DNA from: Dioscorea cayenensis subsp. rotundata
Taxonomy: Eukaryota > Streptophyta > Magnoliopsida > Dioscoreales > Dioscoreaceae
Direction: 5' to 3'
DNA: 64,000 bases
Assembly: GCF_009730915.1 (NCBI RefSeq)
Contig: NC_052489.1
Coordinates: 31,427,916 to 31,491,915 of the forward strand
The notes below the pieces were generated by a model. The model was not told where the DNA came from. It saw only the letters and a program-made list of their open reading frames with translations, and searched no databases. Shown piece by piece: positions 33,802 to 61,756 of this stretch. The number at the start of each line of letters is the position of its first letter. The first letter of the stretch is position 1. Both the position numbers and the translations under genes were made by a program.

Positions 33802-34564
33802 CTAAAGATGGTGATTGAGGTTAGATAAGGTGCGAGAGTGACTGGCAATGAGAGCCGCGGTGGAAGGGAATTCAGGCAAGACGATGCCGTAGCCATCTTG
33901 GAACTGGCCCAAGGCTTGGTCCAGAAGTTGCCAAAAAAGGCCTCCAGCGAATGGGCCATTATTGCGAGCACTGTGGAGGATCATTGTGTAGGTGATAACC
34001 ATTAAAGCATCCCTTGACTTGATTGAGCCTCCTTTTGGCTTCAAAGATTTCCCAAACTCACCCATCAAGATTGGCTTTTTCAATATTCTGCCTGCATCCT
34101 GCACATGTGACTCTGTCCAATTCTTCATGTATTCTAATTGGACTTTATCAACTGAGCCTGATAACCTTCAAGTGCATGTAAAAAGGCATCATCATCATTG
34201 ACATGAAAAATTTAATAAAGAAACATGCACATTGATGCATATATATGGAGATTAATTAATTAATACCATATATCTGGGTAGGCATGAAATGTAGCGAAGT
34301 CGATCCCCTTAATCTGATTGTGAATCAAGAAATCAGTACCAAACACAATACCTCCAGGATTTAAATACTTTTTTTCAGGTGTGCTATTTCCATAAAATCC
34401 TTCCATTCCCACATCAAGCAGATGCTTCTTGTCTATGGATTTCACATAAGCTGCCATCTCTGTGATCCAGTTCTATACAAATAAAATATATAAATACGAT
34501 GCAAAAGATTTAAAAAAAAAACAATTTGAGTAAACTAAAATGTGTATATATATATCATTCAAGA

Positions 34565-34600
<36 letters not shown>

Positions 34601-35199
34601 GTAATATCTTGCCTGAGAGATCACTTTCACAACGGGGCTCATTAATCAATTCCCATGCGAAGATGGTGGGATCATCCTTGTATATCATCCCGTTAATAGT
34701 GTTCCTCCGGGTCAGTATTGTCTGAATCCCCAATCAAATAAATTCAATATATAATTATCCTCAATATATTATATATATGATGAAACCACAGAAATAAAAA
34801 TAATAAAAAACAAAAAACAAAACAAAAAGAGATATAAGGAAAGGAAATAAGGAATGTCGCTGCCCCAACCGTGCTGGGCCAATATATACAACCTTTTTAT
34901 TTTTTTATGTATGCCGTGACGCATATATATATATATATATATATAATGCTACTTACACTACCTTAACATGGTTCTTGTAAAAGCCCTTGATCATGATGTT
35001 AGTGTAAAAGTCATCCGTGGAGGTCACGTTCTGGCCCTTCTCTCTTGCCCATTGGACATACTGTTTTCTCCCTCCAAAATCCGAATAGTAATTCACCAGA
35101 CTCATTATCAGATAAATCCCATTTCTATGAGCTTCTGAAACCACAAAATCTAATCCCTGTAATTAAATCAAAATAGTGAATGAGATACATATAATGTAT

Positions 35200-35234
<35 letters not shown>

Positions 35235-35798
35235 TATATATATATATTCTGCTGAATTAAAACCTCGAATTATATATATTCAAATTAAAAGAAAAACTTA
35301 AAATGTTAAAATAAATCATTAATCTAATTAATAAATTAGTACTTTTATGTGTACTTGGAACATAGCCTCGTTAGTAAGAACCAGGAGCTGATTGCAAGGG
35401 CTTATTAGAAGCGGCAGTACCATCGCTAAAAAGCCCAAGTTCTAGCAAGAGTTAATCCATATACTGAGGCTTGTCTCAGGGCAGAGGCCACCTTGAGCCT
35501 CTGTGTTGGAGTCAGATGCCACCAGCATCATCCAGTAAGCATTGAAACCGTTCAAGTAGAAGGTACTCCCATTCCTAGTAAATTGCAAGCCACTCACCTT
35601 CACAAAATCCTCACCACCTCCACCTCTATTACTTCTTGATGGGATTGAGATGCCTTTTTCTTCTTCTTCTTCTACAAATTCTTCTTGTCCATACACCTGC
35701 AGCACCCTTGTTTTGCCATGACGCTCAAATGTAAAGGCCACTACCAACAGCGTAATGCACAAAATCCTCCTCTTCTCAATATTCATCATCATTAACAT
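33802..35798 (-). CDS. Mannan endo-1,4-beta-mannosidase (GH5), copy C
   Basis: More distant paralogue of A and B with five exons: 35798-35355, 35156-34962, 34721-34599, 34472-34267 and 34165-33802. Borders follow GT-AG. An extra intron (34473-34598) splits the exon carrying the acid/base Glu ([17 protein letters not shown]) from [20 protein letters not shown]. The nucleophile Glu is in LMGEFGKSL, and [20 protein letters not shown] closes the barrel. The start ATG heads a hydrophobic signal ([13 protein letters not shown]). Before the catalytic domain there is an acidic, Gly-rich stretch (EEEEEK...GGGGED) absent from A and B. Exon 1 holds three single-base insertions, after DSN, after RTWAF and after PGSY. 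Removing them restores the family sequence. Confidence 0.85.
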
Positions 35799-35802
35799 CT
35801 TA

Positions 35803-35803
35803 A

Positions 35804-35836
<33 letters not shown>
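35803..35836. repeat. (CTG/CAG)n microsatellite in the leader of mannanase C
   Basis: About eleven trinucleotide units, just upstream of the start codon. On the gene strand it reads as CAG/AGC repeats and would lie in the 5' untranslated region. Confidence 0.85.
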
Positions 35837-36324
35837 ATTAAGATTGATGTGAGATGATGTATAACTGAAGAGAATGTTTGTGTGCATATATCCGTTATAT
35901 TTACACATGATATATATGTTTTGGAAAGAAGTCAATGGCATTAATTATGATTTTCAATGGACGACCTCACAATTAAAGTACTCATTCAAAATGAGTAATA
36001 AGTTTAGTAACAAACACGGTATCCACTGACTAAATTTGGAATTTGCACATATTATAGGAACAATGAATGAATTTATACCATACCATAGCTATATATATAT
36101 ATATATATATATATATCTGTGAAGAATCTCATAGCAAACCATGCAAAATTATAGCTATGGTATAAATTTATACCATACCAATACCATAGCTATAAGCTTA
36201 CTAATTTTGCCAAAATTTACATGCCTGTTTAATTTGGGCTTCAACAATAAATAAATAATGTTAGTACTAGTGTATGGGAGGAGTGAGTCGCATGCAATAA
36301 GCCAAGATGGGAAAAGAGGTTCAT

Positions 36325-36690
36325 GAAAAGCAGATTCAAGTTGCAACAAGGAAGCCAGGAGCATCACGTGGTTGCGTGGGTCTTTCTTTTAGGGTTACGT
36401 ATGTATATATATATATATATATACCCTACCCTTAGGTTGCTAAAGATGTCCTCCATCACATTCTCCATCCCATTTGATACATAACATCCTTACTTCCTTA
36501 TGTTAATTTGGTGAATGCAGATTCAAGTTGCAACAGGGGGAGGAGGAGTCAGCATCACGTGGTTTGTTGCCTGGGGCTTAGCATACCCATAGGTTGCTAT
36601 TTTGCTAAAGCCTAAAGATATCCATCACATTCTCCATGCTCATTTCATACATAACATCCTTATGTTAATTGATATATATATATATATATA
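36325..36690. repeat. Imperfect tandem duplication of about 185 bp
   Basis: Blocks occur in the same order in two copies (about 36325-36510 and 36515-36690): agattcaagttgcaaca, agcatcacgtggtt, taggttgct, catcacattctccat and catacataacatcctta. The copies are separated by little or no unique sequence and have small indels. Confidence 0.7.
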
Positions 36691-37190
36691 TAATTCTCTT
36701 TTGCTGTATTCAGATGCCATGCACTGATCAGAACCCCTAGAAAATAAATAAATAAAGTAACATGCAAGAAACATTAGCAAACATTAGAAACCTGATAACC
36801 AAACCAAACCTCCAAGAACCAAATAAGTCAATGACAATTAGTCAATAACATGCCACTAATCACATAGTTTCTCTTTGAGAACCTCCCTTGCACATTTCTG
36901 GCAATCAAACAAACAAAAGCGCAAAAGAAAAAGCAAGAAAGGATTAGGTCCCTTCAACACTAGATTATTCATCTGATATAATACCTGCAAATCTTCTTGA
37001 CATTGGAGAAAACAAAAATAAAGTTCAGATCCAAAGGCGCAAGCCAGAGGGCTTCGGTCATGGGATAAAAATATAAAAAACATATCCAGTCTATGGAAGG
37101 AAACCTGAGCAAGAATCATTACTGATGTCTACGATCAAACATGAGCTACAAAGATGATTGATTTCATACACATCTCAACATCTCCCGGGT

Positions 37191-39458
37191 TCAGAACTGA
37201 AGACCATTCTCTCGTGCAGAGTTAGCTCAAGGCTTCTATACGGCCATGATAAGGGTAACCACCTCTGTCAGAGGCAACCCTTTGAGATTCCTTTCTCCAA
37301 GCAAGACTTTGCAATGGCTTCACCCACCTTCTTTGCCACTTCCTAGTAACCAAAATTGTTAAATTGACAGCATGTCAAAAACTGGATTGCAGAATATAAC
37401 TCAAAGTTGTGGTTTATCCACTTTATCAATATAACTCAAAGGATCAAGATACACTTTCCGTAGAAACATCTAACTCAAAAGATCAAAGCTACACTTTCGG
37501 AACAAAATATTAATTTATGCATCAAAACAGACAAACTTACACAAAAGTTTGCAAATAATATTATGATAGAGGTTAATATAATCCAAAAGAAATTCTCCCA
37601 TTTGAACAAAGGGGATTTTTCTTATTTTATTTGAGCTAAAAGAAAAGTTGATCAACCAAATGATGATTTTGGAAGATATAGAAGTTTTCAAGGTAGAGAT
37701 GTTTCAAATCCCAAAGCACTCCAGTTATTGCAAGGGAAGGTGCTTGTAATTTATGAACAAGGAGCAAATGGAAAGCAACAATTACTTGAGCCTTGCCAAT
37801 CCATGATGATTTAACTCACAACCTACACATATGACAAAAATCTATATCCTTGAACTTGTGAATTCCTAGTATTTTTGTCATAAAGGAACAAAATTGCCAA
37901 ACGGCATAACTTTCTATCTTTATGTAATTGCTCTTTCATTTTTCTCTTTCATTATTGTGATTTCATAGATGCCGATCAACAATGTGAACAAATTAACCAT
38001 TTAGCTTATTTACCAACAAAAATCAAAAATATTATATTTCACACAAGTTATGTCAAAAAGGATTATGCATCATAGGCGAAAATTCAGTCAAAGTGAATTT
38101 GAGAGATAGGGGAAGGATAAATGGAAGATTATTTGGATTGTTTTGTTACTGTTTGGTGAAATATCGAAACAACTTTCTTTTTGTCAGTCTTTGGTCAAAG
38201 ATGAGGATAGCTTCATTTGATCCCATAACTTGTTACATGATGACCTAGAAAATGAACATCAGAATAGATTATTATGCACTTTGGAGCCTGAAGGGTAGCT
38301 ATCAGAATTTGTGAAAGATATTGTTCCCTAAGGGTAAGGGGCTCAGTGTACAGTTTAATAGATTAAGTCATAAAGCAACCTCTACTGGTAGGGAACAAAC
38401 CTGAAAAAGTGGATAAACCACAGTGCATTAAAAAAAAGAAAGAACATAGTACAACTACCACTAGATGTGGTACGGAACAAACAGCAGATAGGGAAACAAC
38501 AAACTTTTGCTTGACATTTGGAATTTGAAAATTTAATAAACCTGCGAGAGTAACAGAGCAGCTGAAGGGAAGAACACAAAATATGCCATGTAGTCCGCAT
38601 GTGGTCAGCAAGGGAGATGGGTTAGCTAAAGAAATATGCAAATGTCTATCATAATCAGTGTGATGCTGTAAGAGGAATTTCCTATGCTCGTCTAAGGAAT
38701 GTCAACCTTCTAGTATGATTTGAACTAATAAATTAACCTTCTTTACTAGAAAAAGCAAATTCTTGTTAGGTGGTAAGTCTTTTCAACATTTAAAAGAAAA
38801 ATTGCAATTTGTTATGGCAAGAGTAGCTAAGAATGCAAAAGAAACAGCAGATAGGGAAGAACAGAATGTGTGAATACAACACAATAACGTTAAAATGGAA
38901 ATACTTACAATGGTGGGGGCAGAAGAGTAATCAAATTCTTGAGAGATAGGCTTCTGCATCGTTGAAGCAGAAGCAAGAGTGTGCATCTTGGTGTCATCAA
39001 TGACTTGGACATATAGGTGTTTGTTGGAACGGAAAACGGATAGCCTTGGCCTCTCCGGTGTACCCTCTACCTGAACAGATAGCAACCAATTGATTGGATT
39101 TGGTGTTACTACTGGAAAAGTGGAAACATAACAATAGCACAGGTAACAACCAATGACCGACAGTGGGGTAGAAGCAAGATGACAAACAATCAACTTCAAA
39201 CAAAATCGCAGATTGGTAAGAAATTATTAAGATTAGGAGGAAGGAGAAGGACTGACCTTCTTCCGCACGCGCTGATGGCGAGCATCGCGGTTCTTCTTGC
39301 GGGTGACGGTCTTGGCAACGATGCAGGGAAAGGTTGCCGCCGACTGAAGAAGAGGGGTGACATTGGTAATGGGGATGAGACGGGTGCCTCTCAAAGAGAC
39401 GGAGGAGGAGAAGGGTGCTGTTGATGACCAGAGACAAGCGGCAGCGGCAGGGACACAT
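37191..39458 (-). CDS. RPL18: Plastid 50S ribosomal protein L18 (uL18c), nuclear gene
   Basis: Nuclear-encoded 5S-rRNA-binding protein of the chloroplast large subunit. Exon 1 (39458-39257) encodes a Ser/Thr/Ala-rich transit peptide and the mature start [17 protein letters not shown]. Exon 2 (39070-38909) gives [20 protein letters not shown] and [16 protein letters not shown]. Exon 3 (37342-37191) gives [34 protein letters not shown] and a stop after ENGLQF. Introns have GT-AG ends. Three single-base insertions interrupt the frame, one just after the ATG and two in exon 3. Removing them restores the conserved protein exactly, so they look like sequence errors. A LINE 3'-end scrap lies in intron 2. 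Confidence 0.85.
38400..38640 (-). mobile_element. LINE 3'-end scrap inside RPL18 intron 2
   Basis: gaaaaagtggataaaccaca near 38402 matches the tail of the LINEs in this window, in minus orientation. A related short string (tgtggtttatccacttta) lies in opposite orientation near 37411-37428. No coding part or duplication was found, so the extent is approximate. Confidence 0.4.
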
Positions 39459-39941
39459 TCTCTCTCTCTCGTTTTTGTTTTTGTTTGGTTTTTTTTTCCA
39501 CAGGTATTTCTCTCAGCACTCAGCAGAGCGGAAGAAAGCAAACCCAGTCGACCTCTCTTACCTTATCCAATCGTTTATGCAGTTACTATATATATTTATG
39601 TATTAATATTTAATTATTTTTACAATGTATTATAACAAGTTCTCCAATGCTAGCTAATTCATGCAGCATCTAGATATATATACACACACACACACATGGC
39701 ACACAAGGAGTGTTTACTATTTATTGGTTGTCCCTAGAAAAACATAATTTCAGTTAAATAAAAAAAAAACAGCATTTTTTTTATTTTTTTATTTTAAAGC
39801 AGCGTCTGGTGAAAGACAAATCCAGAACCTGGGCTGAGCAGAATGATTCAAGTGAACTGCAGACATGGATGAGGAAATTAAGCATTTCAAGCCAAAAGCA
39901 GCTCTATTTTGTTTCCTCTCTATCCGCTTCAAGTCATCTAA

Positions 39942-42900
39942 TTACAGTGGTAATTTTGCAACCAATTCAAATTTACATAACAAACATAACAGGCCTGGCA
40001 TACAGTGATACAGATACAGCAATCCTAAACTTTTCAGCTCAGCTCTCAATTCATAAGCAGAAGGAACATCATGCAGGGGATGCCCTTTTCTGTTTCTTTC
40101 CATTATTCTCTTTGCAAGGGATACTTGCTTGCCTACCACGAACACAAAAGCCTTTCCCATTTCCCATAGCACCACGAGCCGTCCTCCCAACACGACGGAC
40201 ATATTCACTAGGGATCACGGGGAAAAATCGAAAAGCACCACATGATCAACATTTGTGAAGTCAATGCCTCGCGATGCCCTGTTGCATGCATGATTATGGA
40301 ATTTATCAGCTTAACAATAACTAGATATAAACAACAAAAATTTAGCAACATAGATGGCAATTTAGCAACATAGATGGCTTTGGGTCGGCTGGCTAGTGAA
40401 TGTATACAAAAGATGTGACAGACATGGGGTATAAAACCAACCACACTCATAAAAACATAACAGAATAATAGAGACATCAACAAAAACACATTTACCTGTC
40501 AGTGCAAATCAAGAATAAATTGTCTGTTGACTTCAAGTTGAGAAACCCCTTCATGTTGAAGAGAGCGAAGTTTCTTGATCTAAAAGCAGCATGGAATGGC
40601 AAGACTTTTAACATGGACTCCTCTCCGATCAAAGCGTTTCAATGCATTCTCCACCTTTCTGCAAGTTTCAATCTGCCCAAGTAACACAGGAAAAGACATG
40701 GGAACCAAACCATAAGTTATTTAAAGGGCTTCGTCATGGCATAATTCGTCCTATAACAAACTGACTTATCAGATGAGAAGAGGAAACAGTCATGCTTGAA
40801 ATTTAGAACAGTAAAAAGTAACCATAAATCATCACAATACTAACCTTATTGCAGAAAACAATAGTTCTAGAAACTGGAGATTCTTGAACAAGCTGCAGTA
40901 AAGCAGATCTCTTGTTCGTGAAAGCTGTATCAGGACTTTTTTCCCCTTCAACATCGCCACTGCAGTCAACAAGAACCTACACATGAATTCACAATGTGAA
41001 TCACACAAAAGTTCCGAGGCAAGTGAGTAATGCAAGCTTTACTGCCCTTGCAACAGATCTTGCATTGATGGTGATTGTTACATACAAAGCAAATATGTTA
41101 GCAAGCCCAATTCTTTCCAAAAGCTTAAGCTTATAGAATGCGAAACCCCGGACTTTACATTCAAGTTTATATTCATCAAATCAACTGATGTATGAATATT
41201 AGTTACTCTAATATGCCTCCCAGATATATGTATTAGTCTATTTTAACTATACACATTGCAAACCAAACAAATCAAAACTTTGATTATATACAAACCGAAT
41301 ATGTCATCCACCTCTGATTTAACACAAAAGCTTAAGCTCATAGGATGATAGACATAAGCTTCAATATTCAGCCCATATTTATCAAATTGCCTGGGTATAG
41401 GACAATTAGTTATTCTTATACTGATAGCCTTTCTGAAATCAAAATCCATTACTCATGAGGATCGGTACAGCATTGATGAAGTTTGTCCTCAGCATTGCAA
41501 CTAGCATGGCTTATATGATACATCATTCAAAACATAGCATAAACATATGCAAGGATGGATATATGAGACTGAATGGATGTCATGTTTCATGTTAAAAGTC
41601 TTCAAAAGGAATAGTGAACTGCTTTCTCATAATATTTTTCACATGAAGAAGCCATTACAAGCCTCCTCTGCTCACACTTCATAGTGAAGAGAAAATAAAA
41701 GGATATCTTCATCCCTTGCACCTTCTCAATAAAAACTATAGTATTTGCACTACATAAAAATTACCTTTCTGACATCAAAATCATTTTATATTTGAAAATG
41801 GCACTGCTTGTGTAAACATTCATTACATCCCTCCATAGGAAATTTTCTGATAAAGTAAATAAATATATGTCCAAAATTAACACACCAACCATTTGAAAGA
41901 AATTCAAAACAAAAACTATGCTTGCAAACTGCAATCAGGCTTTGCCAGGCCACAATAGATAACAGAGATAGCCTTAAGCAATATCTAAAATATCTACCTT
42001 TGCAAACATCTCCAGAAGAAAAATTCTTAAATTTGAATTGTACAGAAGAAAATGAGTCAATGCAAGGAGCAAAAGGGAAAAAACAAAGCGGAGGAATTTA
42101 CCTCTTCAAGCCTAGAGCTCATCCGGTGAAGGCCTGGTCCCATAATTACTTCACAATCAGGGAAGGTCTCAACCAATTTATTGTAAATATCAACAGGAAG
42201 AGTTGCAGTGACAAAAAGATACTGTGATGTCATGGGTGCAGAGCTAGATAAGGTTTGAAGAACTTGTTCGAAAACCTTCATCGCCAAAACAAGATGTCTA
42301 CTTCATCTAAAAATAACACTGGAAAACAAGGAAATATAAGCATCAAAAGGAAAACTGAGAGGTTTCTGTCAGATTAATGCTTATATAATGATACTAATTG
42401 CTAAACGCAAATGAAACAGATAATAAATAGACAAAAAATTTATTGACATTAAAACTCGATAAATTTAACCTTTTTTTAAAAAAAAATTTTACCTTTGAAG
42501 AGATATCCCATTGTTCCAAAAAAAGAAAGATTAGGTAAAGAAAAAAGCGAATCAAATAATGTTGACTTGAGATTCCCATGGCATAGATGATTATATAAAT
42601 AAAAATTCCTTTTTCTTTACAAACCTCATTCCCCTCTTGCATCTGGTGTTGATGGCTAAATAAATTATTCACATAACCATCTTTAATTTCTGAAGATGGA
42701 AACGGATACACAATTTGAGCATGACTGATATCACACACAGACAAAAAGAACTCTCGGAAAAATACCAAAATCTTCGGTTGGAACACCAGATAAACATTTG
42801 AAAAAGTTAAACAAGTCTTACCATCTAAGGTTAGTTAAGAGCAGAAAGCCTTCTTGAAGTAAGTAAATTAATCGACCAGGTGTAGCTATGAGCACATCCA

Positions 42901-44371
42901 TTTCTTGTTGAAGATTGTCTAACTGAGTTTTCTGCCGAAATCCCCCTGTTGCAACCATGGACCTGAATGGGACACCACCTTTTGATATTGATCTGCAGTT
43001 ATTAAGCACCTGCAGACCAGAAGAACATGAGATGGATTTATCCTGCAGAAACCACACAATTCCCTAATAATCCTAGTAATGAGGTCATTTAATCTTATTT
43101 GAATTTCCTCGATGAAAAAAAAAATAATCTTGACAGACAATGCCGACCTGAGAGGCCAATTCAGCAGTGGGAGCCAATATTATGACACGCGGACTCCTTG
43201 CTGAGGATTTGTGAAGCCCGGCTAATTCTTCTTGCCTCAGACGTTGGATGGTAGGGGCAAGATAGGCCAATGTCTTACCGGATCCACTTTGATCAGCAAT
43301 GATGCAGCTTTTTACCTTCTAAAACTGGGCCATATGCCATTGCCTGGAAGTTGAGGGGTTCACAAAATTGTGAGTTCAAGGCGCGCAGCTAAATACAGAG
43401 AAATAAGGCTCTCATAACCTCTGCAGACTAGCATTAGCATATTAATCCAAAAAAGAGGACCTGGATATGTGACGGGCGGATAAACTGCAAATCCTTCAGG
43501 GATTGTACCATGTCCGGAGAACAACCCAAGTTTTCAAAGGATTTGTTGCTAAAAAAGCCACCATTTGCCGACTTTCTACTTCGCTGCGGCAGCCGTGCAG
43601 CAGCCGTTGTATTGCTCTCGGAGGAAAAAGAGGAGCTGGCACTACCCCATCCCCGTCCTCTCAATGAAGAAGAAGAAGAAGAAGAAGAAGCATTCCCTGA
43701 GAAGTAGAAGACTCGCCCACGAAATCAGGCCTTACATTGGAAAAAGCTTCCGTCTTTAATATCACCATCTCTTCCATTGTCGTGAAGCAGCCTGAATCCG
43801 GTTCTAGCTCTGACAAAGTCAGGTTCTTCTTGATAGGTGGCTGGAGCATTTTTCTTTTACAATCGAGAGTACGATTGGCAGAGGATCTCTTAATCATAAG
43901 TCCTCTAATCTTCGAGGCTTTCAGTTTGCTGAATCCGGTGCGAGACCTAGCAGCACGGTCATCATCAGCAAGTGCTGAAGCAACCAACAACAAAGACGAA
44001 TGTAAGTAATGAGAAACTTTGAATCCTTTGGGCTCCCATTTGCTTGGGAGCAGCATCAGGCACTATGTATGATGACTCACAATCGCTTGACTTGACGGCT
44101 TCGGGTTTCCAGGAGAGGACTTGTTCGGAAGGGATGGAGTCATCTCCACCGTCGTCGGATCCACCCCAAACGATGAACTTCTCGCCAGTATGCTCGTCAA
44201 TCAGTTGATAGGCGCCCGGGTGTCCATGGGAATGCGCTTGTAAGCCACCCGACACACTGGCAAATTCCTTCCATTACGGCGGTAATTGAGAAGAAATGGA
44301 AATGGAAATGGAAATGGAAAGGTTTCCAGGTGAGAGGAGGAGCATAGAAAGAAAGGGGCTCTGGCAAGCAT
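39942..44371 (-). CDS. RH50: DEAD-box RNA helicase 50-like, chloroplast
   Basis: ATP-dependent RNA helicase of the plant RH50 type, predicted for plastids. Minus-strand exons are about 44371-43461, 43343-43148, 43019-42822, 42318-42102, 40976-40855, 40672-40496 and 40278-39942. Landmarks in order: GAYQLIDEHTGEKFIVWGGS (N-terminal region), the Q motif FENLGCSPDMVQSLK...RPSHIQ, motif I ADQSGSGKT, PTAELASQ, ATPGR, motif II as DEVD rather than DEAD, motif III VTAT, SRTIVFCNK, RASRGIDF, and motif VI YVRRVGRTARGA. At least six single-base insertions shift the frame, for example in GGTAAAAAGC before motif I and GATTTTTCCCC before motif VI. The conserved codons run on in the next frame. The C-terminal end after HDVPSAYEL is uncertain. 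Confidence 0.85.
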
Positions 44372-45058
44372 TGGTGTCCTGGATTGGAATGGCCTCACAA
44401 AATCAACAGAAAGCAACGATGAAGAGGAGGGAACGAGGAGAGGGCACGCCTGCCCGGGATAAGATCTATTTAAGTTTGGGCCTCACCGATGCATTCCACT
44501 ATAGCCCATGGAATTTCGAAATTGTTATTTTTATTTATTATTATTATTATTTTGCAGAAATTTTTATTTTATAAATATTTGAACTAATTCATTTGTGAAA
44601 CTTTTTTTGTTTTAAATTATCATCATTTATGTATATGTGCGCGCGCGCCAAAGTATATGCCTGTGAATATAATTATTTTGTATTTTTAATATTACCATCA
44701 TAACTCATCCAAAGGGACCAAAACCCAAGACACCAGCATTTTGGCCACAAACTATCTGCGTCCCTTCATATGCAATACAGGAATAGCAAAAAGGTTCAGA
44801 GATCACCACAACATATTCCATTAACAAAGTGAAATATTTAGATTCTGTTGCCTCTCTCGGTGATTTACATGCAGCAGTAATACAGAATTCATCAACTACC
44901 GGCTAGCAAAGGCATAATCATGTAACTCTAAATGTTCTGGGCAACAAGGAAACAAACAATTGCTGAAATCAAAGCCTGACAACACATACTTATAAGCTGA
45001 GATAAATTGGTCTCGAAAGGAATCAAGTATTTCAGCCGTCTACAGTTCTGAGCTTGCA
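44372..45058. other. Gap between RH50 and FDC2
   Basis: Upstream sequence of RH50 and the 3' untranslated region of FDC2. Includes (ATT)n near 44536-44551 and a short gcgcgcgcgc run near 44640. No further gene was seen. Confidence 0.55.
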
Positions 45059-46945: not shown

Positions 46946-46977
<32 letters not shown>

Positions 46978-47857: not shown

Positions 47858-47896
47858 AGCAGGCAGGGCAGGGCAGGGCAGGGCAGGGCCGGGCCG
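47858..47896. repeat. Minisatellite (GGCAG)n upstream of FDC2
   Basis: Six or so tandem five-base units of gcagg/ggcag type followed by gggccgggccgc, in the presumed leader or promoter of FDC2. Confidence 0.8.
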
Positions 47897-48341
47897 CAAG
47901 GAAGGAGTCTAGTGGGTGGGAGATATAACAGAACAGAAACGCTATCTGAAATGATATCTCAATCCCATTGGGATATTATGTAGATTAGCCTTATATATGT
48001 TTTCTTTCTTCTGAACAGCACAAACCCACTTGCCTCGTGATCAGCACTTTACAATCACAGATAAAAATTGATTTATAAAATGATTTTTATAAAGTTGACA
48101 CATTTTTCAACAAGCTTGTTTTGTTTGTTGGCTGTGGTTGCCCAACTTAACTTTCATGGAAGATTGGAAGGACCTTATCAGGGAGGACAAACCTCGGAAG
48201 TAGCAGGCGCAAAGCAAGATATTAATTTATAAGATGAATAAACTACTTGCATTAGAGCAAAACTAATGAGAGACCTTAAAGAAAAAATAAGTTGAGGAAT
48301 GGGCGACTCGCTCCACGGCGATCTGCTCGGCGGAGCTCGCG

Positions 48342-50790
48342 ATGGAGGAAGGTATGGTAGGAATGGGGGAGGGAGAGGTGGATGGTCACGTAAAAGCCTT
48401 TCCCACAGCATCCAGCGAGGTTCCTAACCGAGCATCGAGAAGTGGCCATCCTCTCCTCGAAGCGGCTTTGTTAGAGGGCACCACCTGCTGTCAGCAGTTA
48501 GTCCTTCCGAGCCGAGCAGGCGAGTGCGGTGGAACCTCAACAAACTTTGGCAAGTGCTACATGCGGAACCCCGGAAGGTTGGGGAAGCGGTCCGATCTCG
48601 TAGCTTGAGGACATAGCCCTACCTCCGACGGACCGAGTGCGTTTTTTTCTTCACCGAAAGGCTGTCTCACTGGCGCAGGGACCAGTCTGATCTCGTCACC
48701 GGTGCGCAATCAACATCTCCGTGATACACACAATACATCGAATGTCGCCACTGCCGTCTCTGTATAGCGATGTGGTGGGCGGAGTCACTGGCTATGAATT
48801 GTAGGCTGGAGCTCCCCCGTCTCCAGCGTCATCGTCGCTGCCAAAGAGCTAAAGCGAGCTCCTCTCAGGACAGTGCTAATCTTGATGGAAGTTCATCTGT
48901 TAATCCCGGCTGGGCAGCGCCATCATCTATCCATCTCTCTAAACGAGAGGCAGCTAAGCTGCGAAAGAGTGACAAAAATCGTAGTCGCGAGCGTTATCTC
49001 AAAGGGCGGACCCGGTGAAGATATTCTCTGAGTTTCTTCCGAGACTTTGAACACACCAGTCGAGCAGCGGTCTCCGATTTCAAAGGGAATTCTTACTTGG
49101 CCACCCTTAGCGGTGAGAATGAAGCCATGAAGGCTAGCAAGATTGAGGGAATTGAGCTTATCTTCAAAAAGAAATGGGACCATGTGTTATCTCCATCAAA
49201 GACCTTGGTCCACAGAGATTGGTCGATTGGGATCGGCGATCGGGGAAGGCTCAAGTTCTTCTCATTTGGAATCTCCCTCTCCATGCTTGGACCAGTCATG
49301 TCGGTGGATATCCTGCGTGACGATTGGAGAATTGGTGGCTGTTCGCAGCAAGTAAGCCTCATAAGTCCTTCCTCTCGGTCCTCGTCAGATCCGCCACCGT
49401 GTGGTGATTCCTGCATGAGATAATGTCTGAGCTTTGGAATGCGCAAATTCATCGTGCTCATCACTGATAACCATCTCCCTTTCCCTACTTTCCGACGAGA
49501 CCTTGACAAGTATGTTCTTCCCCGAGCATGAGGGACCAAGTTTTGGAAGGTGCAAGAACCCAGATGCCTTGATCGTCGATCGTGCTCCGTGATAATAAAG
49601 GAAAAGAGATGATGATAGATCAAGACCAAGTGCCAGACAAAGTTGCTAGCGAGACCCATGCAGCATGGCCCTCCACCACAAAGAAACTGATTTAAAACTT
49701 GGAAACCTCGTCAGATCCCGTTCGGTGGCGGTGCTCGGGGTCTCGGCTAGTTCATCAAACTCGGCAGGCCAGGAGAGCGTTGCTCCCGGGCTCAAAACTT
49801 GTCTTGAGATCCGCCGGTGAGCTCAGCTCCGGGATCTCCGACCTCGGCGGGGTGATCCCGGATGGGCACACTCGGATAGTCGTCGGACCACGATGTCCAT
49901 CCGCCGCGCGTGTTTTACCCACTGGAAACCCGACGTTGCATGGCTCAACCCGATCGCTGCACACGTCCCAAGAGACCCATTACGCATCGATCGACCATTA
50001 GACGAGGTTGCTCTCCGAGCCGACCAGCGATTGAGATGATGTTGGAGCGAATGTTGTGGCGACATGTCGCCGGCTTCGACTGATCTCTCCCGCGTGACAA
50101 AGCGGGGAGAGCGTGGTTAATGTTGTCTCGGGCTCACTAGGCATGTGGGCTTGGATCACTCTCTTAAGGACCCATTTGTCGTGGTTGGTGGGCCTTGCCA
50201 TGGAACCAAAGCCTAGTCAGTGAGAAGATTTCTTGTTACCCATCCGAGATCGAATTAGTGGGCCATTCTTCTAAGGGCCGGTTGGGCGGCCACGCTTGAG
50301 ACCAGAGAATCCGAATCGACTAGGAAGTGGGATACCTCGAGTGGACCCAGATAACTTCAGAACCGGAACATCCTCTATAAACTTGCACCCTCCCTCAAAT
50401 TTTGAGTGGGTTTATCTCCATGGCTTCGGACTCTTGCGTCAGCAAATTTTCTAAAGAAATTTCTCGTATCACGGTAGATGATGTGTCTATCCGGTAGGGA
50501 GCTATGGAAATATTGAGGGAACCCAGGTTAAGGATAACATGCTTGTGCCCTCTACTCAGATGTCAGATGGTTCTCGTCATGATTGTGAAAGTCTTGGCAG
50601 TCAGGAAGGGGATGATTCAGAATCTGACTTTGAAGAAAGGATTAAAGATTGCAGACTGGACAAAGCGAAGACCCCTTCTCGAGGGCTACAAGAAGAAGTG
50701 AGCGGAGGAGAAATCCCTTCCCCTAGGAGATGGAGCAGCCGGTTTCATACCACGTGCCACCAAGATCCACCCAAAAGAAGGGGCGACTAG
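48342..50790 (+). pseudogene. LINE ORF1-like region
   Basis: Several overlapping plus-strand frames of basic and Ser-rich composition, such as LSKREAAKLRKSDKNRSRER near 48930 and KTLVHRDWSIGIGDRGR near 49200. The position upstream of the endonuclease and the similar GC content indicate ORF1. An intact CCHC knuckle could not be found, unlike the LINE at 20.6 kb. Frames change every few hundred bases. Confidence 0.4.
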
Positions 50791-51029
50791 CACGACCCCG
50801 GAAGGTACTCTGGCTACCCTCTTCTTTTAAATGAATGGAATGACTTTGACTGTTCAATTAATTATTGCAAAAAGCTTGTGGCATTTCTTTTGATTCCTTG
50901 CAACATAGAGATAAATGCTTGTTACATTTACGCTCTCGAGATCAACTAGATTGTCCCCCTAGACCCTATTCGCGAGACACTCAGTTTTGGGGCCGCCTCG
51001 GGTTCTAATTAGTTTCCTATGAATATTAT

Positions 51030-54000
51030 CAAGCCCTCGGGAATGTTAGAGGTTTGAGAAGTCCCTCCAAAGCGCTTCCTAGTTAAAGATTTTCTTAACA
51101 TTCACCCATCGTCGATATTTCTGCTTGCATACGAGAATCAAAACTAAGCTCGATTGATCCTTCCGTCTAGAGGTGGATTGGTGGCTCCCGACTAGATCAA
51201 TTTTTGTTTCACCCCCGCTCTAGGTTACAGGGGGATGCTAATTGGGTGGAACAATAGTTTGCATGAGGCGGTTTGGCTTTTCCTAGGCACTTTTTGTCTC
51301 TTTCAGGTGGAATTTAGGGTGCAAATCTAATGACACCGCTAGTTTTGTACCAGCGTCATGGTCCAAATGTGACGCAGTTAAAAATCGAATTTTTGGGAAA
51401 GAAATTGAGACTTTGCCTCCACAGGAATGGTGTCCCAGTGGGTCATCGTGGGGATTTCAACTCCATTTTCTCCCACGGAGACAAGTCTAATGGCGGCCCC
51501 GATTTGGATGATATCGAGTGCAAGCTCAATCACTTTTAGGGATCTTCACGTTTCGTCGTCGTTCCACTTGAGACGAACTTGGTGTTCGATTGGAACATTT
51601 TCGAGGAAAGCGTGATCGCCCCGGTGGAGCTCATCACATTTCCAAAGGTTGTGGTGCTTTTATTACTGGCCAAGAAGATTGCCAACCTCGAAACCTTACG
51701 AGGCTGACAAGGCGAATTTGGTTCGACAAAGCTCAAAAAGCTAGCTTTACTACACGATATCGACCGTTTAGAAATTTTAAAAGACTCGCATCCTCTCACA
51801 GAAGAGGAAGTGGCCAAGGACTCTTCCTTGCGATCTGATTTAGCGCAAATTCTCAAACATGAGGAGATTTCTTTGGAAGCGCGAGCTAGGGTTACTGGCT
51901 ACAAGAGGGAGACGAAAATACTAGATTCTTCCGATTACATTGCCAATGGCGAGCAATAGCAATTTCATTTCCTTGGATCACCCATACATAACAGTCGAGG
52001 GATCTCAGCGAGTTTGAAAAGTATTGGGGACTCTTTCACCAATTTTATCAAAATCTTCGTGGAGCTACATGCAGGACTTCCGTTTCAAAATTAGCGGGAG
52101 CAATGTTTGGGTCCCAAATTCAATCATGATCTATCCTCACTTCGGACTCACCCTTCTCGTCGGGAGGAAATTAGAAGAGCAGTTTTTGATCTTAATGCTG
52201 ATAAAGCACCTGGTCCGGATGGTTTCCCTATCTTTTTCTTTCAAAAATATTGGGATATTGTCAAGGCCCGACATTTTCAAAGCGTGTGATGATTTCTTTG
52301 GGGAAGAGCTAATTTTAAGAGAATCAATTGGGCTTACATTAACGCTTATCCCCCAAAATTCTTAGTCCACAAAAATCCCTCGCACTTTCGACCGATTAGT
52401 TTGATTAATTCCTCCCTCAAAATCATCTCCAAAATCTTAGAAAACAGATTGAGATCTAAGATCAATGCACCTTTGGTTGATGAGACCCGATCGGCATTCA
52501 TAAAAAGGGAGATGTGTCGCTGATAACACTGTCACTGCTAATGAACTCATCTTCAACATGCAAAAAAACATAGGCACAGGGTTTAATTCTCAAAGTTGAT
52601 TTTTGCAAAAGCTTTTGACAGCTGGTGGATTGGGGTTTCTGTTGGAACTCTTAAAAAGCTAGGGGTTTTAGCGATAAATGGATTGGTTGGATTAATGCTA
52701 TTACGGTTTTCTTCCAAAGCTAAGTTCACTTATCAGCGGTTGCCCAAGTGGTTTACCTTAGATACGTAGGAGGTCTTGAACAAAGGGGACCCTCTTTCAC
52801 CCTCTCCTCTTTGCTAGCTGTTGATGTTCTTAGCACAATGTTTAACAATGCATAATCTTTGATAATCGCATGGATGATCCTTAGTAACTTCGGGGAAAAA
52901 GATGTATCATCCTTGATACGCGATGATCTTCTCATTTTAACAAATAGGTGTTGAGGACTTTACGTGTCATCAAAGCGATTCTATACATTTTTGAAGGATT
53001 ATCGGGTCTCAGTGTTAATTCGGACAAAACTTGCCTCTACACCTCCCAAAGAAATCTTACACCCCACTTTTCCCAGTCGAGAACGATCCATTGTAGCACG
53101 GGTTCCCTTCCTATTACCTATCTTGGCATCCCAATCTCCGGGGGAAGGCCAAGAAAACAAGATTGGGAAATCCTAATCAACAAAATTCGTTCGAGGCTCG
53201 CCTCTTGGAAAACTAAATTAATATCTTTGGGGAGGTAGGCTCACTCTGGTTAACTCATGTGCGCCCTGGCTATCCCCACCCTCTTGGATGTCAATATTCA
53301 GGCTCCCTTCTTGGGTTGCTAAGAGTATTGATAAGATATGCGAGACTTCCTGCAGTCGGGGCCCTAACATTCACCGAGTAAGATCGGACTTGTTCTCTGG
53401 GGAGACTATGTCGATCAAGAGAGCAGGAGGGTGGGGTATTCTTAATTTACAAACCTTTAACACTCGCCCCTCTTGGGCAAAATGGTGGTGAAGATTGCCT
53501 CGGGATTCACCAGGTGTGGGGAGGCATTATTCATGAAAATTATTTCCTTTCTTCCCAATGTGGAACCTTTATCACAAGCAAAGCAGTAGGCGATCTTTCT
53601 TTTGGAATGGCATCTTACATGCCTCCCACGCTTTTAGGAAAAATTTATCCTCTCTGTATGCATGTAGGCGACCACACTTTTTGGTTAGAAAAAGCGGGTT
53701 GAGGGACGGCGCTCCTAGCAGACATTTGGCCCAATCATGCTCCATCTTGTCCAATTTAAGGATGTCACGATCGAGATTTTTATCCCTTAGTCGGGATAGA
53801 TTTTCCTTTGTGTGACTCACGATTGGAGCAGACTTTTGTCGATAACACCTGCTATGGCGCTTATCCAATGGGATGGATGAAAAAGCGTTGGACTCTCACC
53901 GCCAAATAGAGCGATTCGGTGTTAAAGCCTTTTATAATTTCTTGAATGATGGAGGTCTTGATTGTAACAAAACACCCATCGATTACGAGGGGTTTGCCCA

Positions 54001-54400
54001 AAAATCAATCTTTTCAGTAGTTGCTTGGGCTAACAAGATTCTGACACTCGAGAACTTAGCTCCTGCGTAGATGTAATTACGCTTCATTCTACCACTTGTG
54101 TGTTGTGTCATCGCGGTAGAAACAGCGATCATCTCCTCCTCTTTTGCCCTTTTTCCCTGCATATTTGGAGCTACTTTGGTCAGCTCTTTGGGATTTTTTA
54201 TCTTCCTAGGTCTCTCAAGGACCTTTGAGGAGGCTGGAGGCGAGGTTGCCTAAAACTCGCCTGTGGGACTTGCTTGTGAGAGCTATCATAGCATATCTGG
54301 ACTGAAAGAAATGCTCGCATTTTCAATTCTATTTGTCTCCCATTTGTCTCCATTATCCTAAAAATTATATGCATGTTAATTTCTTGGTTCAATCGCGACT
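51030..54400 (+). pseudogene. LINE ORF2 (endonuclease / reverse transcriptase)
   Basis: NVRGLRSPSKA at about 51042 starts the endonuclease, although the leading Trp codon is now GGG. RT blocks: RREEIRRAVFDLNADKAPG and PDGFPIFFFQKYWDIVKA (52160-52270), FRPISLINSSLKIISKIL (about 52390-52445), and a damaged RRGLEQ..DPLSP (about 52766). YLGIPISGGRPRKQDWEIL (about 53118) and RAGGWGILNLQTFN (about 53420) are standard C-terminal LINE blocks. A CVLCH-type zinc finger and WTERNARIFN end the frame near 54330. Numerous stops and shifts are present. Confidence 0.7.
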
Positions 54401-54946
54401 CTGAGTCAAAGAAGGCGAGCTTGATGAGCCGATGTCCAAGATCAAGAGGGAGCCTCGGATTTCTGAGCTCAAGAGACTCCGGGGCGGTTCACCCCGTCGT
54501 CGCGGACCCTCCCCTCTGGCGAGATCTAGCTCGTGGTCTTTGTTTTGTAGCCCCTAAAAGGTTCCTCCTTTTAGGGTTTTTCTTCTGTCGACTTTTGCTT
54601 TTGTTGTTCTCTTCCCTTACCACCTCGGTGGTTATCCTATGTAGAGCTTCGACTCCACTTCATTGTTGATGTTTGTGGTTTATCCAGGCTTTTTCACAAC
54701 AAAGACCCAGACTAGCACTAACAAGAACTGCTCATACCACGAGGAGTGATATTGCAGTCACAAAGCAAGATATTAGTTACAGCAGGCAGCAGATGAAAGA
54801 AAGAAAAATAAAAATAAGGCACAAGTACAACGCTCACAAAAACAGTAGTGGGAAGCCCAAGCGCAGCAAAGGCCGCATGATATTGATTTCTTCTTATTGA
54901 GAGAGTACGTACATTATTAATCAATACACAAGCAGACTGATGCACA

Positions 54947-57900
54947 TTAGCTAACTAAAACATATATATATATATATATATATATTATTGATGTGACTAG
55001 CTGGCGGCATTGGCTCAGACCATAGGGTAGCCCTGTCCCTTTGGCCTTGTCGGGGGTAGGGCAGGGGCAGAGGCAAGGGGCAGAAGCAAGCTCAAGGTAG
55101 ATGATAAAAGCCGACTTGCCCTGCCTCCCTGAGATAACGGACATCTACCATTCATGAGCTTCAACAATTTCCTACACACAAAGCAGACTGATGCCCCTCC
55201 TCCGACAGCTCACTACCATTTCCAAACATTTGAGACAGCAATTCCTCTGGCACTCCACTACCCATGTGTGTTATCCTGCAAGGTGAGAGGGCCAGCCACG
55301 CGTTAGTAAAATTCAGAAAAACCAATAAAGCTCAAGAGAAATGCTACACTTGGCACATTGGTACAAGCACTATGCATGCATGCATGAATGAATGGCAAAC
55401 GAAAAAGGCAATTGTAAATTGTTTTTGCTGACTTGCCAAGTGTCTGTGGACTATCAAACTATATTAATACCTGCAAGACCCGGCCAGTGGAACAAATAGC
55501 TATTGAAAAAACAATATCAAATGCTAAAAATTTCGCCAAGTCAATCAATTAGTAAGCCAGGGTTGTGGTGAAGCACTTGGCCCCCCATTGAACTCATAAG
55601 CACTGCAAAGAAGCATGTTAATGGTACCTGAGCTCCAGATGCACTAGATGGAGATCTTTTTCCCAGATGATCTTTATTTATTTCAGAAGTGATTTCAACC
55701 AGACCTCCATTTTGGAGAGTACTTCACAGACACCACCACAGGAAATCAGCAAGGATCTGTTGAAGCCTCAGATTATCCCCATAAAGGCCTTCAGTCATGA
55801 ATTTATCTGATAGACTGTTAACTATTCGAACACCCTTTTTCATTGCTCGCAATCATGACTTGACTCACAGCAGTAATCAAGACATCCTGTGGAATGAACT
55901 CCACCATTTCTAAACCCAAAACAGCTGCAGATAATGAGACAAGAGAACGTTATCAGCATACAAAAATAATGATCATTTTTAAAGTTAAACGAAATAAGAA
56001 CATCTGTTGGAAGAAAAATTGGCATGGTAAAGGATCAGTAACATCTACAAACTTGATCACATGGATGTAATTCTGGCATAAACAGAGTACCCTGAAATAG
56101 AAGAATATAGGTTAATTGAATTCTTCTGGTTTTTGTATGGAATAAAATCAAGTAACAGAAATGACTTCCATAAACATGCTGAAAGCACATTGATTGAAGG
56201 ACCAGCAGAGCAAATTGCCAGAAAAATTTTTATGAGAAGGAAGATATGAGATTATCATAAAGAAGGACCTCCAGCACTCTAATCAATCAAGCAGAAACCA
56301 CCTCTCGGATCAGACTATCCACTGTTTCAGTGCAAGCTCGATGCACCAAGGGCTCTTATTCTCAGATTTCGGATCAGTTTATGTAGTGTGATCAGTCTTT
56401 TGAGTAAGAGGATACGATACCTGTCTGTAATGTTTTCAAGCTCCAGGTCATCAAGAATTCTGTTAACCTGCTGGTGGCACCTCCCCTCGGAAGTCAATAG
56501 CTCTTTTTGCTCCTCAGATAAATCAGTGCCCTCAATCATTTTTCGGAAATAATGTATTCCAGAAAGAGGATTTCTTATTTCATGCCTGATATACAACAAA
56601 GCTTTCAGTTTCTTCATGGCTGTTTGCTCTGACAGCTGCTGGACATGGAGAACCTGTTGCAGACTCCTGACTAGCAGTATGCAAGAAGCAAAACACTCCG
56701 GTGACTATACCTTCTGCATCCACTTTCTTGGTCACCGAGAGAAGGCATTCCACATGCTTACCACTACGACTGATAAAATCAAAGGGAGTCTTTTCTGTTT
56801 CTTGGCCTGCTATGGCATTGTTAATGACCACACTAAGATTCACAAATGCATCTTGGTTCTTTAAACGACAACAGGCTGCACTGCTCCCTGAAAACCCTCA
56901 CCCAACAGCATCCTATCTATCACTTCATCCCTCTTCCATCCAGACAACTTAGCCATGGCTGGATTCCACCTCGAACACCAGCCAAACTCATCTGCACCAA
57001 ATATAGGTGGGATCAGCGGGCTAGGATTTTGTACTATAGCTTTGTAATCTCCTTCAATCCGAATAAATTTGTCCATGACCATCTTTTGACCAGTCATATC
57101 TTGAGCCACAAAGCACCTCCAACTGCATTCTCATTGATGTCGCGGCTTGCACAAGCATTGACAATCAAGATAACAGGACCATCATCTCTCCGAAGGCCAT
57201 GAGTTTTCATCTGAAATTGCACATTCTGCTTTTCCTTCCCTAACCATGTATGATACATAAGATAATTAGGTACCAGCTTAAATTTACAAGTTTGTAAATT
57301 GAATTAAGCTCAGCCCCTATATCATGTAAATTGTAAAATAAATGAATGAAGGACCACAAATAGAAATTGGAAGTCAAGGAACCAAGTAAATGGAGATGGA
57401 GCACAATACTTACCCTGCAATGCCAAAAAGCATCTCCTTGACAACTTCCACTGAAGAATCTTCTACAAGGGACAGCAAAATGCTTCCCTATGGCTTCATC
57501 TACCGAGAGACCCGTTAATTCAGCAATTTTCAGGTTCCACCCATTTATGAATCCATTGACATCCACCGCCAAGATTGGCACGGTCGCTGTCTCAATCAAC
57601 CGTACCATTTCATTGGTCACCGCTTGCAATTCTACCATTTCTTCAATTCTAAGGTCACTGATTCGAGCATCCAGTGATGCCTTCCTCTTGGAATTCTCAG
57701 AATCATTGAAAGTCCCTCGCAGTATAAGCTGCAAGGAATGAATAGCATCCATCTCATAGTCCTTCCAGGAACACTCCTCATCTTTACGGCTTCAAGGAAC
57801 GCTTTGAATGAAGACCTTGGGTGCATTCTCTTCCCATCATCTTTATCCAAGGGATCATGCTTTGCACCTCCCCATCGGATTTCAGCAGCGGTATGAGATC

Positions 57901-59478
57901 TAAACCAAAAACATGATGTCTTTGGAAGTAATTCTGGCAGCTGCCATCCCACAAACTACATCACCAAGGGTTAGAGCAGCAGGATATCCAGCATCACGCA
58001 GACTGTCAGTGCTCAAACCTGTAGAATCCATATGATTCTCTTCAAGCCAGTAGGCAAATGTCTCTAATCTCAGTTTCAGTTGGGGTCAAGCCAAGCCTCC
58101 AAATCTCATTTTTTCGTACAAAAAGGGCAGCACCATCACATTTCACTAGATCCATAACATTTGGACTCTGTGTCATGATGCCTCACAGGTGTAGCATCTC
58201 TGAGCAACATGTCACACAGCAGTGTCTGGGTTTTTCAGGATGTTCTTCTCGCGGAGCTGATTCTCTAAATCAAATTCCTTGTTGACATGGATGGCAAACA
58301 CCTGCATCAAGAATTCACAGGCAGTACCTTAAGGGAAGGGAACAAACCTTGGGCTTTCATGATGGCAAACAACAAGGCCCCAAAGTCTCTTCCTCTTTTG
58401 CTGCTGGGACTGTCCAGACTCCAAGTTCTCACATTCCTCCTCCCCTTCATTCACCACCACTGCCATAACCAGAGATGCTATAGAGTTCATGTTCTCCATA
58501 TACTGCAAGTGACAACTGTGAGGGGCTCTAAGTGTAGAACCACAGAAGGTCAGATCAGAAGGCAGCTTCTCGTCTTGATAAATCTTTATAGGCCTCGCAC
58601 GACAATCACAAATCATCCGGATCTTGCTCTTCAGGAAAAGGAATCTAGCAGCCTGGGGAATATCTGTAGCTGGATAATGCAGGCCTTGGTAAGACTCCAA
58701 TCCCGGCTTTGTGATTTCTCGAAAGACCTCTCCATGGTCATCTTCATGGAACCTATAAACCATTACCCTGTCATAGCCAGTGAGTTCAAAGACTTCTTCA
58801 ATCACTGTTTCACAAAGTCTCTCTATACTACCACCAGGCAATGATTGCAACCGGGCTATTGCTTTAGCAGCGAGCTTTATATGATTGAAGGGCCCCGCAG
58901 CGGTCATGGGCAACTCAGAAGGCTTCACTGGCTCAAAATCAACAATCAAACAAGCAGTCACCCGATGGATGATTGCATAGAAGGGCTTACCAGATGTTTT
59001 ACAGTGGACTAAAATAGGATTGAGAAGAGAGACCTCCGGGTAACCTAAGGCCTTCTGCAGTGCTGCAGTACTAGGAGAAGTAAAAATGCTCCTCACATCA
59101 GTTCCGATACCAAGCGTAAGGTGTTCTCCTACGCTTGGCACAGCATGGCTGACCATGGTGAGCATCTCCGGGGAATTCTCAGAGTAAGCTATGACCTTAA
59201 ATGTCTTCTCATCAAGGGCTAACAAGCAGCCAAACGGCTGGATTAGCTTCCCTTTCTGAATGTGCTGTAGGGTATGCAGTGACTTTCTCCGACTTCTTGG
59301 GGGTCAGGAGATGATCCCTTGTGTGCCACAATTGACTGGGAATAATCAAACGAGGTGCCGAACTCTTTCCAAACTCTGCATCAAGTTTGGCATCTACCGT
59401 TGTCTGGGCTATGATTCTAGCGCTGTGTCTACTTCTGTTGGAACTAGCAGAAGAATTTGCAGGTCGAGAGGAAGACAT
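54947..59478 (-). CDS. PHYA: Phytochrome A
   Basis: Red/far-red photoreceptor with N-terminal photosensory and C-terminal histidine-kinase-related modules. Exons: 59478-57414, 57239-56421, 55924-55628 and 55275 to about 54947, the three-intron plan usual for phytochromes. It starts [20 protein letters not shown] and continues [15 protein letters not shown]. The GAF domain has [10 protein letters not shown] and the bilin-binding Cys in [35 protein letters not shown] marks the PHY domain. [17 protein letters not shown] and [14 protein letters not shown] are the PAS repeats. HEIRNPLSG and [15 protein letters not shown] lie in the kinase-like part. PHYA rather than PHYB or PHYC is chosen from the N-terminus and the MAVVVNE...CHHESP stretch. 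At least ten frame changes occur, nearly all by one extra base. The C-terminal stop is uncertain. Confidence 0.87.

Positions 59479-60924: not shown

Positions 60925-60966
<42 letters not shown>

Positions 60967-61717: not shown

Positions 61718-61756
<39 letters not shown>

Follow-up and report, generated by a model that had tools for sequence, protein, structure and literature searches.

The window, the whole stretch of 64,000 nucleotides from Dioscorea cayenensis subsp. rotundata that was analysed, carries three mannanase genes and genes for plastid ribosomal protein L18 (RPL18), an RH50-like DEAD-box helicase, an FDC2-like ferredoxin and phytochrome A (PHYA; Table 1). PHYA was identified by a phmmer match to the phytochrome A chains 8isj/8isk. 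The name FDC2 was carried over from the sequence-only reading; here the class assignment is the ferredoxin match, hence FDC2-like. Ten further ORFs, lying outside the named genes, gave transposon or weak matches only when searched against Pfam.

Table 1. Features of the window (positions within the 64,000 nucleotides).
Feature	Position	Strand	Remarks
Mannanase A	2884..11713	-	Intact frame; internal control
Block assembled three times	27237..63147	+	Three copies near the end of C19; copy c3 from 27795 on
Mannanase B	27805..29790	-	Protein-to-DNA alignment and direct comparison with mannanase A
Mannanase C	33802..35798	-	5 exons; match to 1rh9, E 1.6e-138
RPL18	37191..39458	-	3 exons; match to chloroplast L18 4v61/5mlc
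RH50-like DEAD-box helicase gene	40046..44371	-	8 exons; DEAD-box matches to E 3e-37
FDC2-like 2Fe-2S ferredoxin gene	45059..47723	-	6 exons; 2-4 insertions in the ferredoxin domain; ferredoxin match E 2e-18
PHYA	55085..59478	-	4 exons: 59478-57414, 57239-56421, 55924-55628, 55275-55085
Start of 1000-N scaffold gap	63148..64000	.	Contig of the window ends here; gap 31491063-31492062

Frame disruptions in the seven genes

The genes were aligned with homologues of solved structure by a frame-shift-aware protein-to-DNA alignment, in which extra and missing bases were charged equally and penalties of 10, 14 and 20 were compared. At a penalty of 14, 34 insertion and 7 deletion events were called across the seven genes; the totals were 42:11 at penalty 10 and 28:6 at penalty 20 (binomial p for the insertion excess against 1:1, 1e-5 to 1e-4 over the penalties). 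Simulated PHYA with 15 insertions and 15 deletions yielded 11.9-12.2 INS1 and 12.2-12.4 DEL1 calls; the aligner was considered to be without insertion bias because equal numbers were recovered nearly equally. The disruptions had been described as nearly all single-base insertions; extra bases do predominate, but deletions, about one event in six, form a real minority.

Every gene named in the sequence-only reading was located, and its count was re-derived by the alignment. At penalty 14, PHYA contained 17 insertion and 6 deletion events, the RH50-like helicase core 6 insertions, and the FDC2-like gene 2 insertions and 1 deletion (4 insertions at penalty 10). RPL18 had 2 insertions, near 37227 and 37279; a third extra base is suspected at the start codon (near 39458), which is beyond the reference, and was judged by eye. 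All 3 extra bases of mannanase C fell in exon 1 (35373, 35431 and about 35510), the remaining four exons being open, and in mannanase B the last exon (28155-27805) held 4 events comprising 5 extra bases, with the other exons open. In mannanase A nothing was called at penalty 14 or 20, and a single deletion at 10. In the comparison of the last exons of mannanases A and B, one of five listed events and one of four substitutions came from unequal ends at the exon border and were excluded.

Runs of at least 4 were found within 5 bases of 15 of the 34 insertions, compared with 3.7 expected at random, a figure in which the extra base itself may count in the run and inflate the excess. This homopolymer concentration is expected of consensus errors and agrees with the earlier observation that the disruptions often lie in or next to homopolymers. 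Clustering of events in 150-base bins showed no significant excess (p 0.42). Event density was uneven: to the left of 35355, 3,104 coding bases held 4 events, and to the right 5,474 held 37 (p 1e-4).

All 27 introns were GT-AG, the exon borders having been picked with GT-AG in mind, and at penalty 10 no in-frame stop was left in the seven genes of the window. The nonsense and splice-site substitutions that pseudogenes would show beside frame shifts were thus not found. Read through its frame shifts, PHYA was 70.6 % identical to the Arabidopsis and 68.9 % to the maize protein, which share 64.7 %; by this relative-identity comparison, no relaxed divergence was seen in the PHYA protein. The same comparison was neutral for the mannanases (52-56 % identical to references that are mutually 61 % identical) and for L18 (72-77 % versus 81 % between references).

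Redundant copies of the block

Copies were sought in the window's own genome (584 Mb) by blastn of the window against fetched loci. Near one chromosome end, the assembly contains three copies of the block at about 27-63.1 kb (the window itself, c2 and c3), in contigs joined by 1000-N gaps, and the FDC2-PHYA part of the block occurs a fourth time (c5), inverted and 2 Mb away. The genes of the block, of which three plastid ones had earlier been regarded as of single-copy type, are therefore present three times in the assembly, and PHYA-FDC2 four times. The block match was broken at about 30.9 and 31.7-32.6 kb. The 6.5-kb LINE was missing from c5, and the element at 20.6-27.2 kb from contig 1. 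At the naive offset in contig 1, neither of two samples from the left part of the contig carrying the window was matched; a nearer stretch of contig 1 matched the window at 12.7-19.2 kb with about 96-97 % identity.

Contigs 1 and 2 both stop next to 1000-N gaps, and their ends correspond to one homologous point to within about 30 bases. Copies at gap-joined contig ends, as in false duplication, were found for the three tandem copies (gaps 31345179-31346178 and 31491063-31492062); c5 is outside this result. The arrangement resembles false duplication by haplotigs or overlapping contigs in its adjacent redundant contigs, 1000-N joins and two nearly coinciding ends, but differs in having more than two structural versions, and some of the copies may be real.

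The window, c2 and c3 were aligned over 7,743 coding bases, and changes were counted as private where one copy differed and the other two agreed. Private coding insertions, deletions and substitutions numbered 42/7/25 in the window, 39/11/15 in c2 and 27/7/8 in c3, so that insertions exceeded deletions 3.5-6 fold and indels outnumbered substitutions in each tandem copy (49:25, 50:15 and 34:8). An excess of coding indels over substitutions against copies of the same locus is expected of consensus errors, and it fails over the LINE, where window-private substitutions exceeded indels, 399 to 169. Outside the LINE, noncoding bases included, the two were nearly equal in the window (201 substitutions, 222 indels), and private one-base changes pooled over the three copies comprised 327 insertions and 134 deletions. 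For PHYA, coding insertions, deletions and substitutions against three agreeing copies were 19/3/6 in the window, 32/5/9 in c2, 5/0/1 in c3 and 5/1/5 in c5; the private indel to substitution ratio of c5 was 6:5 in PHYA and 1:4 in FDC2. The 61 noncoding window deletions in the four-way PHYA alignment were taken as an artefact of unequal slice ends and were left unused.

Among the sites displayed, the extra base was missing from both other tandem copies at 2 of 2 sites in RPL18, 7 of 7 in RH50, 3 of 3 in mannanase C and 3 of 4 in FDC2, the fourth FDC2 site lacking it in one of the two. Sixteen of the 20 PHYA sites displayed lacked it in all three other copies, 1 was common to two others and 3 aligned uncleanly. 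Copy c2 had open frames for mannanase C and the FDC2 domain at penalty 14, and c3 for RPL18 over the aligned part. A majority sequence, in which three-way disagreements were settled by the window's letter and ties went to c5 (PHYA) or c2 (FDC2), was open for mannanase C and RPL18, and for the FDC2 domain once c5 was added.

Several features count against sequencing error, among them the window-private substitution counts outside and inside the LINE. None of the four copies has a fully open PHYA (c5 and the four-copy majority each retain 6-8 events). RH50 events persist, with 3 in c2 and 1 in c3 at penalty 14 and 9 and 7 at penalty 10, against a distant reference. Deletions occur, and some lesions are multi-copy: those at 58235 and 57427 are common to three copies, in which both homopolymers are read as 5, with c5 having 4 and 7, respectively. 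A few multi-copy lesions look like systematic homopolymer miscalls.

Probable residual consensus error and the type of read

We consider the disruptions to be errors of base calling and consensus that remained in a long-read assembly, with a probability of about 0.95. On this reading, the region was assembled redundantly and the extra bases are sequencing errors that persisted in one of its copies. Short-read polishing probably failed because, with the block assembled three or four times, short reads mapped ambiguously. Judged from the sequence, the plant itself most likely carries intact forms of the six disrupted genes. Insertion-type error of uncorrected long reads had been proposed earlier; error is retained, as the extra bases are mostly missing from the other copies, but a level of about 0.5-1 % indicates residual consensus error and not raw reads.

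In the disrupted part, A/T runs piled up at length 5 and were scarce above it, a pattern absent from the control locus. Runs of 5 versus at least 6 numbered 51:5 at 55-63.1 kb and 84:31 at 32.5-48 kb, compared with 70:64 in the control (Fisher p 1e-7 and 1e-3); the ratios in c2 (205:71), c3 (194:95) and c5 (138:45) all differed from the control. Outside the LINE, the one-base run changes private to one of the three copies numbered in total 51 from 2 to 3, 79 from 3 to 4, 85 from 4 to 5, 3 from 5 to 6 and 6 from 6 to 7. Homopolymer lengths capped near 5, with a pile-up at 5 and a drop at 6, are a nanopore mark, and the wall at 5 suggests an older nanopore base caller.

Errors of this kind could also stem from PacBio continuous long reads, which is possible but somewhat unlikely. 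Raw PacBio reads lean to insertions (about 8 %, against about 3.2 % deletions, with about 4 % of each for nanopore; PMC7671305), and insertions well above deletions were found here (327 to 134). An uncorrected PacBio bean assembly offers a gene-breaking precedent: PMC4663752 gives 8,611 insertions and 38,889 deletions against short reads, mostly in homopolymers, the side with extra bases being unstated there, and errors that would break over 1,000 genes. Against PacBio stands the pile-up of A/T runs at 5, together with the nanopore tendency to underestimate lengths above 5 described in PMC8486125. The same paper reports nanopore profiles leaning to deletions, which, with the PacBio insertion lean, was counted against the nanopore-based explanation. 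Overall, the error pattern fits nanopore better than PacBio, although the excess of insertions, taken by itself, would suit PacBio.

As in unpolished long-read assemblies with gene-fragmenting indels (PMC4663752 and PMC12007338), single-base indels, often at homopolymers, break conserved frames; here, the block was assembled repeatedly, and internal copies reveal the errors without reads.

Possible real lesions and consequences for annotation

A mixture, mostly errors with a real lesion in at least one duplicated copy, is unlikely. Lesions common to several copies and a copy number above two favour it, but the two shared lesions examined (57427 and 58235) are what systematic miscalling would give. 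It is quite unlikely that the plant truly has three tandem copies and a fourth, inverted PHYA-FDC2 copy without the LINE 2 Mb away, overlaid by sequencing errors, in which case at least one copy may be dead; phytochrome A and plastid genes would then have been amplified recently near a chromosome end.

Independent decay of each copy of a truly duplicated block into pseudogenes is very improbable. The structural differences among the four PHYA-FDC2 copies (c5 and contig 1) and the lack of a fully open PHYA would suit it, as would recognisable genes with frame disruptions, which are the likeness to unprocessed pseudogenes. The excess of indels over few coding substitutions in each tandem copy (slight for PHYA and reversed for FDC2 in c5), the excess of insertions, the intact splice sites and frames free of stops at penalty 10, the conserved PHYA protein, the run-length wall and the mostly one-copy lesions argue against it. 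An argument from the indel-to-substitution ratio of pseudogenes was set aside, the copies being the direct test. Programmed frameshifting is disfavoured, since the sites vary between copies.

A histogram of run lengths flags unpolished blocks quickly and without a reference; redundant contigs may rank among the worst polished. Automatic annotation can be expected to fragment or omit PHYA, plastid L18, the FDC2-like ferredoxin, the DEAD-box helicase and two mannanases, and readers of the assembly could wrongly infer gene loss.

Frame disruptions in the window

The window is plant DNA in which a scaffold gap opens at position 63148. GT-AG was kept in 27 of 27 introns, the exon borders having been picked with this rule in mind.

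Genes and other features of the window
Feature	Position	Strand	Matches and remarks
Mannanase A	2884-11713	minus	1rh9, 9m20 (phmmer, solved chains)
Mannanase A intron (~7 kb)	4361-11386		GC-richer DNA inside
Plant mobile domain	9356-9823		weak match under Pfam cut-off, within mannanase A intron
Reverse transcriptase fragment	13649-14095	minus	
Open frame, 256 aa	15334-16101		Copia gag
LINE-like element, second	20588-27236		missing from contig 1; weak endonuclease and RT matches, under Pfam cut-offs
Mannanase B	27805-29790	minus	mannanase matches to 1rh9, 9m20 (phmmer, solved chains)
Mannanase C	33802-35798	minus	mannanase matches to 1rh9, 9m20 (phmmer, solved chains)
Plastid ribosomal L18 (RPL18)	37191-39458	minus	4v61, 5mlc (phmmer)
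DEAD-box helicase, putative RH50 (name from the sequence-only reading)	40046-44371	minus	HAS1 and others (phmmer)
FDC2-like ferredoxin (putative subfamily)	45059-47723	minus	1j7a (phmmer)
LINE-like element, ~6.5 kb	48254-54740		between FDC2 and PHYA
PHYA	55085-59478	minus	8isj, 8isk (phmmer)

Spliced exons were aligned protein-to-DNA with extra and missing bases penalised equally, and PHYA was entered once in the totals, with the Arabidopsis reference. For the seven genes, 34 insertion and 7 deletion events were called at a penalty of 14 per frame shift, 42 and 11 at 10, and 28 and 6 at 20. PHYA with the maize reference gave 17 insertions and 5 deletions (penalty 14). In the intact neighbour, mannanase A, nothing was called at penalty 14 or 20, and a single deletion at 10. 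No insertion bias of the method was found in simulated PHYA; for RH50, whose reference is distant, the simulation recovered on average 2.9 insertions and 3.5 deletions out of 5 of each. PHYA also showed one or two in-frame stops at the two higher penalties (14 and 20), which were read as frame shifts instead at penalty 10. The sequence-only reading had frame lost almost only by extra single bases; insertions do dominate (34:7), but deletions are also present. Its placing of many insertions in or beside homopolymers was borne out, 15 of 34 lying at most 5 bases from a run of at least four against 3.7 for random places, where 15 is an upper estimate because the extra base itself may count within the run.

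Mannanase B is a close paralogue of A; relative to A, its last exon carries four insertion events (five bases) and three substitutions; exon 3 differs by three substitutions and no indels, and intron 3 by one substitution and three indel events, A being longer in two. Homopolymer length differences between the two are as frequent as substitutions, which would be unexpected under neutral divergence. Substitutions amount to about 1 % or less in the stretch from exon 3 to exon 4, intron 3 included (2884-3886 in A, 27805-28814 in B) and to 6-8 % in exons 1 and 2, a contrast between gene parts that resembles gene conversion. The intron separating exons 3 and 4 in mannanase C seems to be missing from A and B alike.

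Redundant copies within the assembly

The assembly comprises 584,211,761 bases in 2249 contigs, the window being C19:31427916-31491915. Comparison with neighbouring sequence showed that the block at ~27-63.1 kb occurs three times: as c2 on contig 1 (end 31345178), in the window on contig 2 (end 31491062), and as c3 where contig 3 begins, with gaps of 1000 N between the contigs. The ends of contigs 1 and 2 fall within about 30 bases of one homologous point, which is 63146 in the window. FDC2 and PHYA occur a fourth time near 29.45 Mb of C19, in an inverted copy (c5) without the LINE-like element between both genes; what looks like the empty site of that element is seen there. Between the tandem blocks the element has 5.7-9.7 % substitutions and the remainder of the block 1.0-1.4 %, an excess that perhaps arose from polishing toward other LINE copies. 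From the L18 region, 284 bases were matched at 83 % at 30.65 Mb. Across the whole genome, a 1-kb PHYA stretch matched the four C19 copies and, more weakly (67-73 % DNA identity), five places on C960, C432, C12, C8 and C7, presumably other phytochromes. Contig 1 also holds ~3.6 kb (3632-7243 of the neighbouring stretch L019) between the homologues of window 16408 and 16471 that the window lacks. Haplotigs, unmerged overlaps and real duplicates are all candidate natures of the copies; since there are more than two structural versions, some may be real.

Reading frames were disrupted differently in each copy. At penalty 14, the window, c2 and c3 had 3, 0 and 8 events in mannanase C, 2, 4 and 0 in RPL18, 3, 0 and 2 in the FDC2 domain, 6, 3 and 1 in RH50 (11, 9 and 7 at penalty 10), and 23, 38 and 12 in PHYA (Arabidopsis reference), where the window and c2 also had one stop apiece. 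Changes were called private in a three-way alignment where the other two copies agreed. Private insertions/deletions/substitutions in the 7,743 coding bases were 42/7/25 (window), 39/11/15 (c2) and 27/7/8 (c3); with noncoding sequence added and the LINE left out, 153/69/201, 119/72/93 and 142/53/122; and in the LINE interior, 94/75/399, 57/30/183 and 62/36/127. With c5 added, the values for PHYA coding sequence were 19/3/6, 32/5/9, 5/0/1 and 5/1/5 (c5), and for FDC2 3/0/3, none, 5/0/2 and 1/0/4. Of the sites that the sequence-only reading named for checking, the additional bases at 37227 and 37279 in L18 are missing in c2 and c3, as are those near 43.31 kb and at 45.99-46.00 kb; at 16 of the 20 PHYA positions displayed, the extra base is missing in c2, c3 and c5. 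The window deletions 57117 and 57769 are likewise private.

Some observations speak against a reading as error: a frame test among the four copies found no fully open PHYA, c5 and the four-copy majority each retaining 6-8 events, and there are the few lesions common to several copies. Those at 57427 (run of five in three copies, seven in c5) and 58235 (five in three copies, four in c5), however, fit a miscall pulling runs toward five, and the private extra bases differ by copy, mannanase C and the FDC2 domain being open in c2 and RPL18 in c3 (penalty 14).

Run lengths, platform and cause

A/T runs of five and of greater length were counted against a control of 20 kb at 30.65 Mb, picked for its L18 fragment and not at random (70 vs 64). 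The ratio was 51 vs 5 at 55-63.1 kb (Fisher p 1e-7) and 84 vs 31 at 32.5-48 kb (p 1e-3), with the left part of the window in between (129:80, p 0.09). The same fall above five was seen in c2 (205:71), c3 (194:95) and c5 (138:45). Further left on contig 1 no difference from the control was found (L019 45:39, L015 55:36, L016 37:26); L019 lacks the run-length cap, and two versions of it were found in the assembly. One-base private run changes, pooled over three copies, numbered 79 for 3 to 4, 85 for 4 to 5, 3 for 5 to 6 and 6 for 6 to 7.

A run-length cap near five is a mark of nanopore reads. PMC8486125 describes underestimation of run lengths above five by nanopore, with deletions dominating its errors, and PMC7671305 ascribes insertion excess to PacBio. 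As the cap points to one platform and the insertion excess to the other, nanopore is favoured over PacBio by about three to one.

What breaks these genes is an artefact of the assembly, of a known kind (literature consulted: PMC4663752, PMC7671305, PMC4719071, PMC8486125), exposed by redundant copies within the same assembly. The proposal of insertion-type long-read error rather than dead genes is upheld, the extra bases being mostly missing from the other assembled copies. Polishing is likely to have failed where short reads mapped to several copies, as suggested by the lack of the run-length cap in L019, found in two versions, and by an event density that is higher in the right part of the window, the part assembled three or four times.
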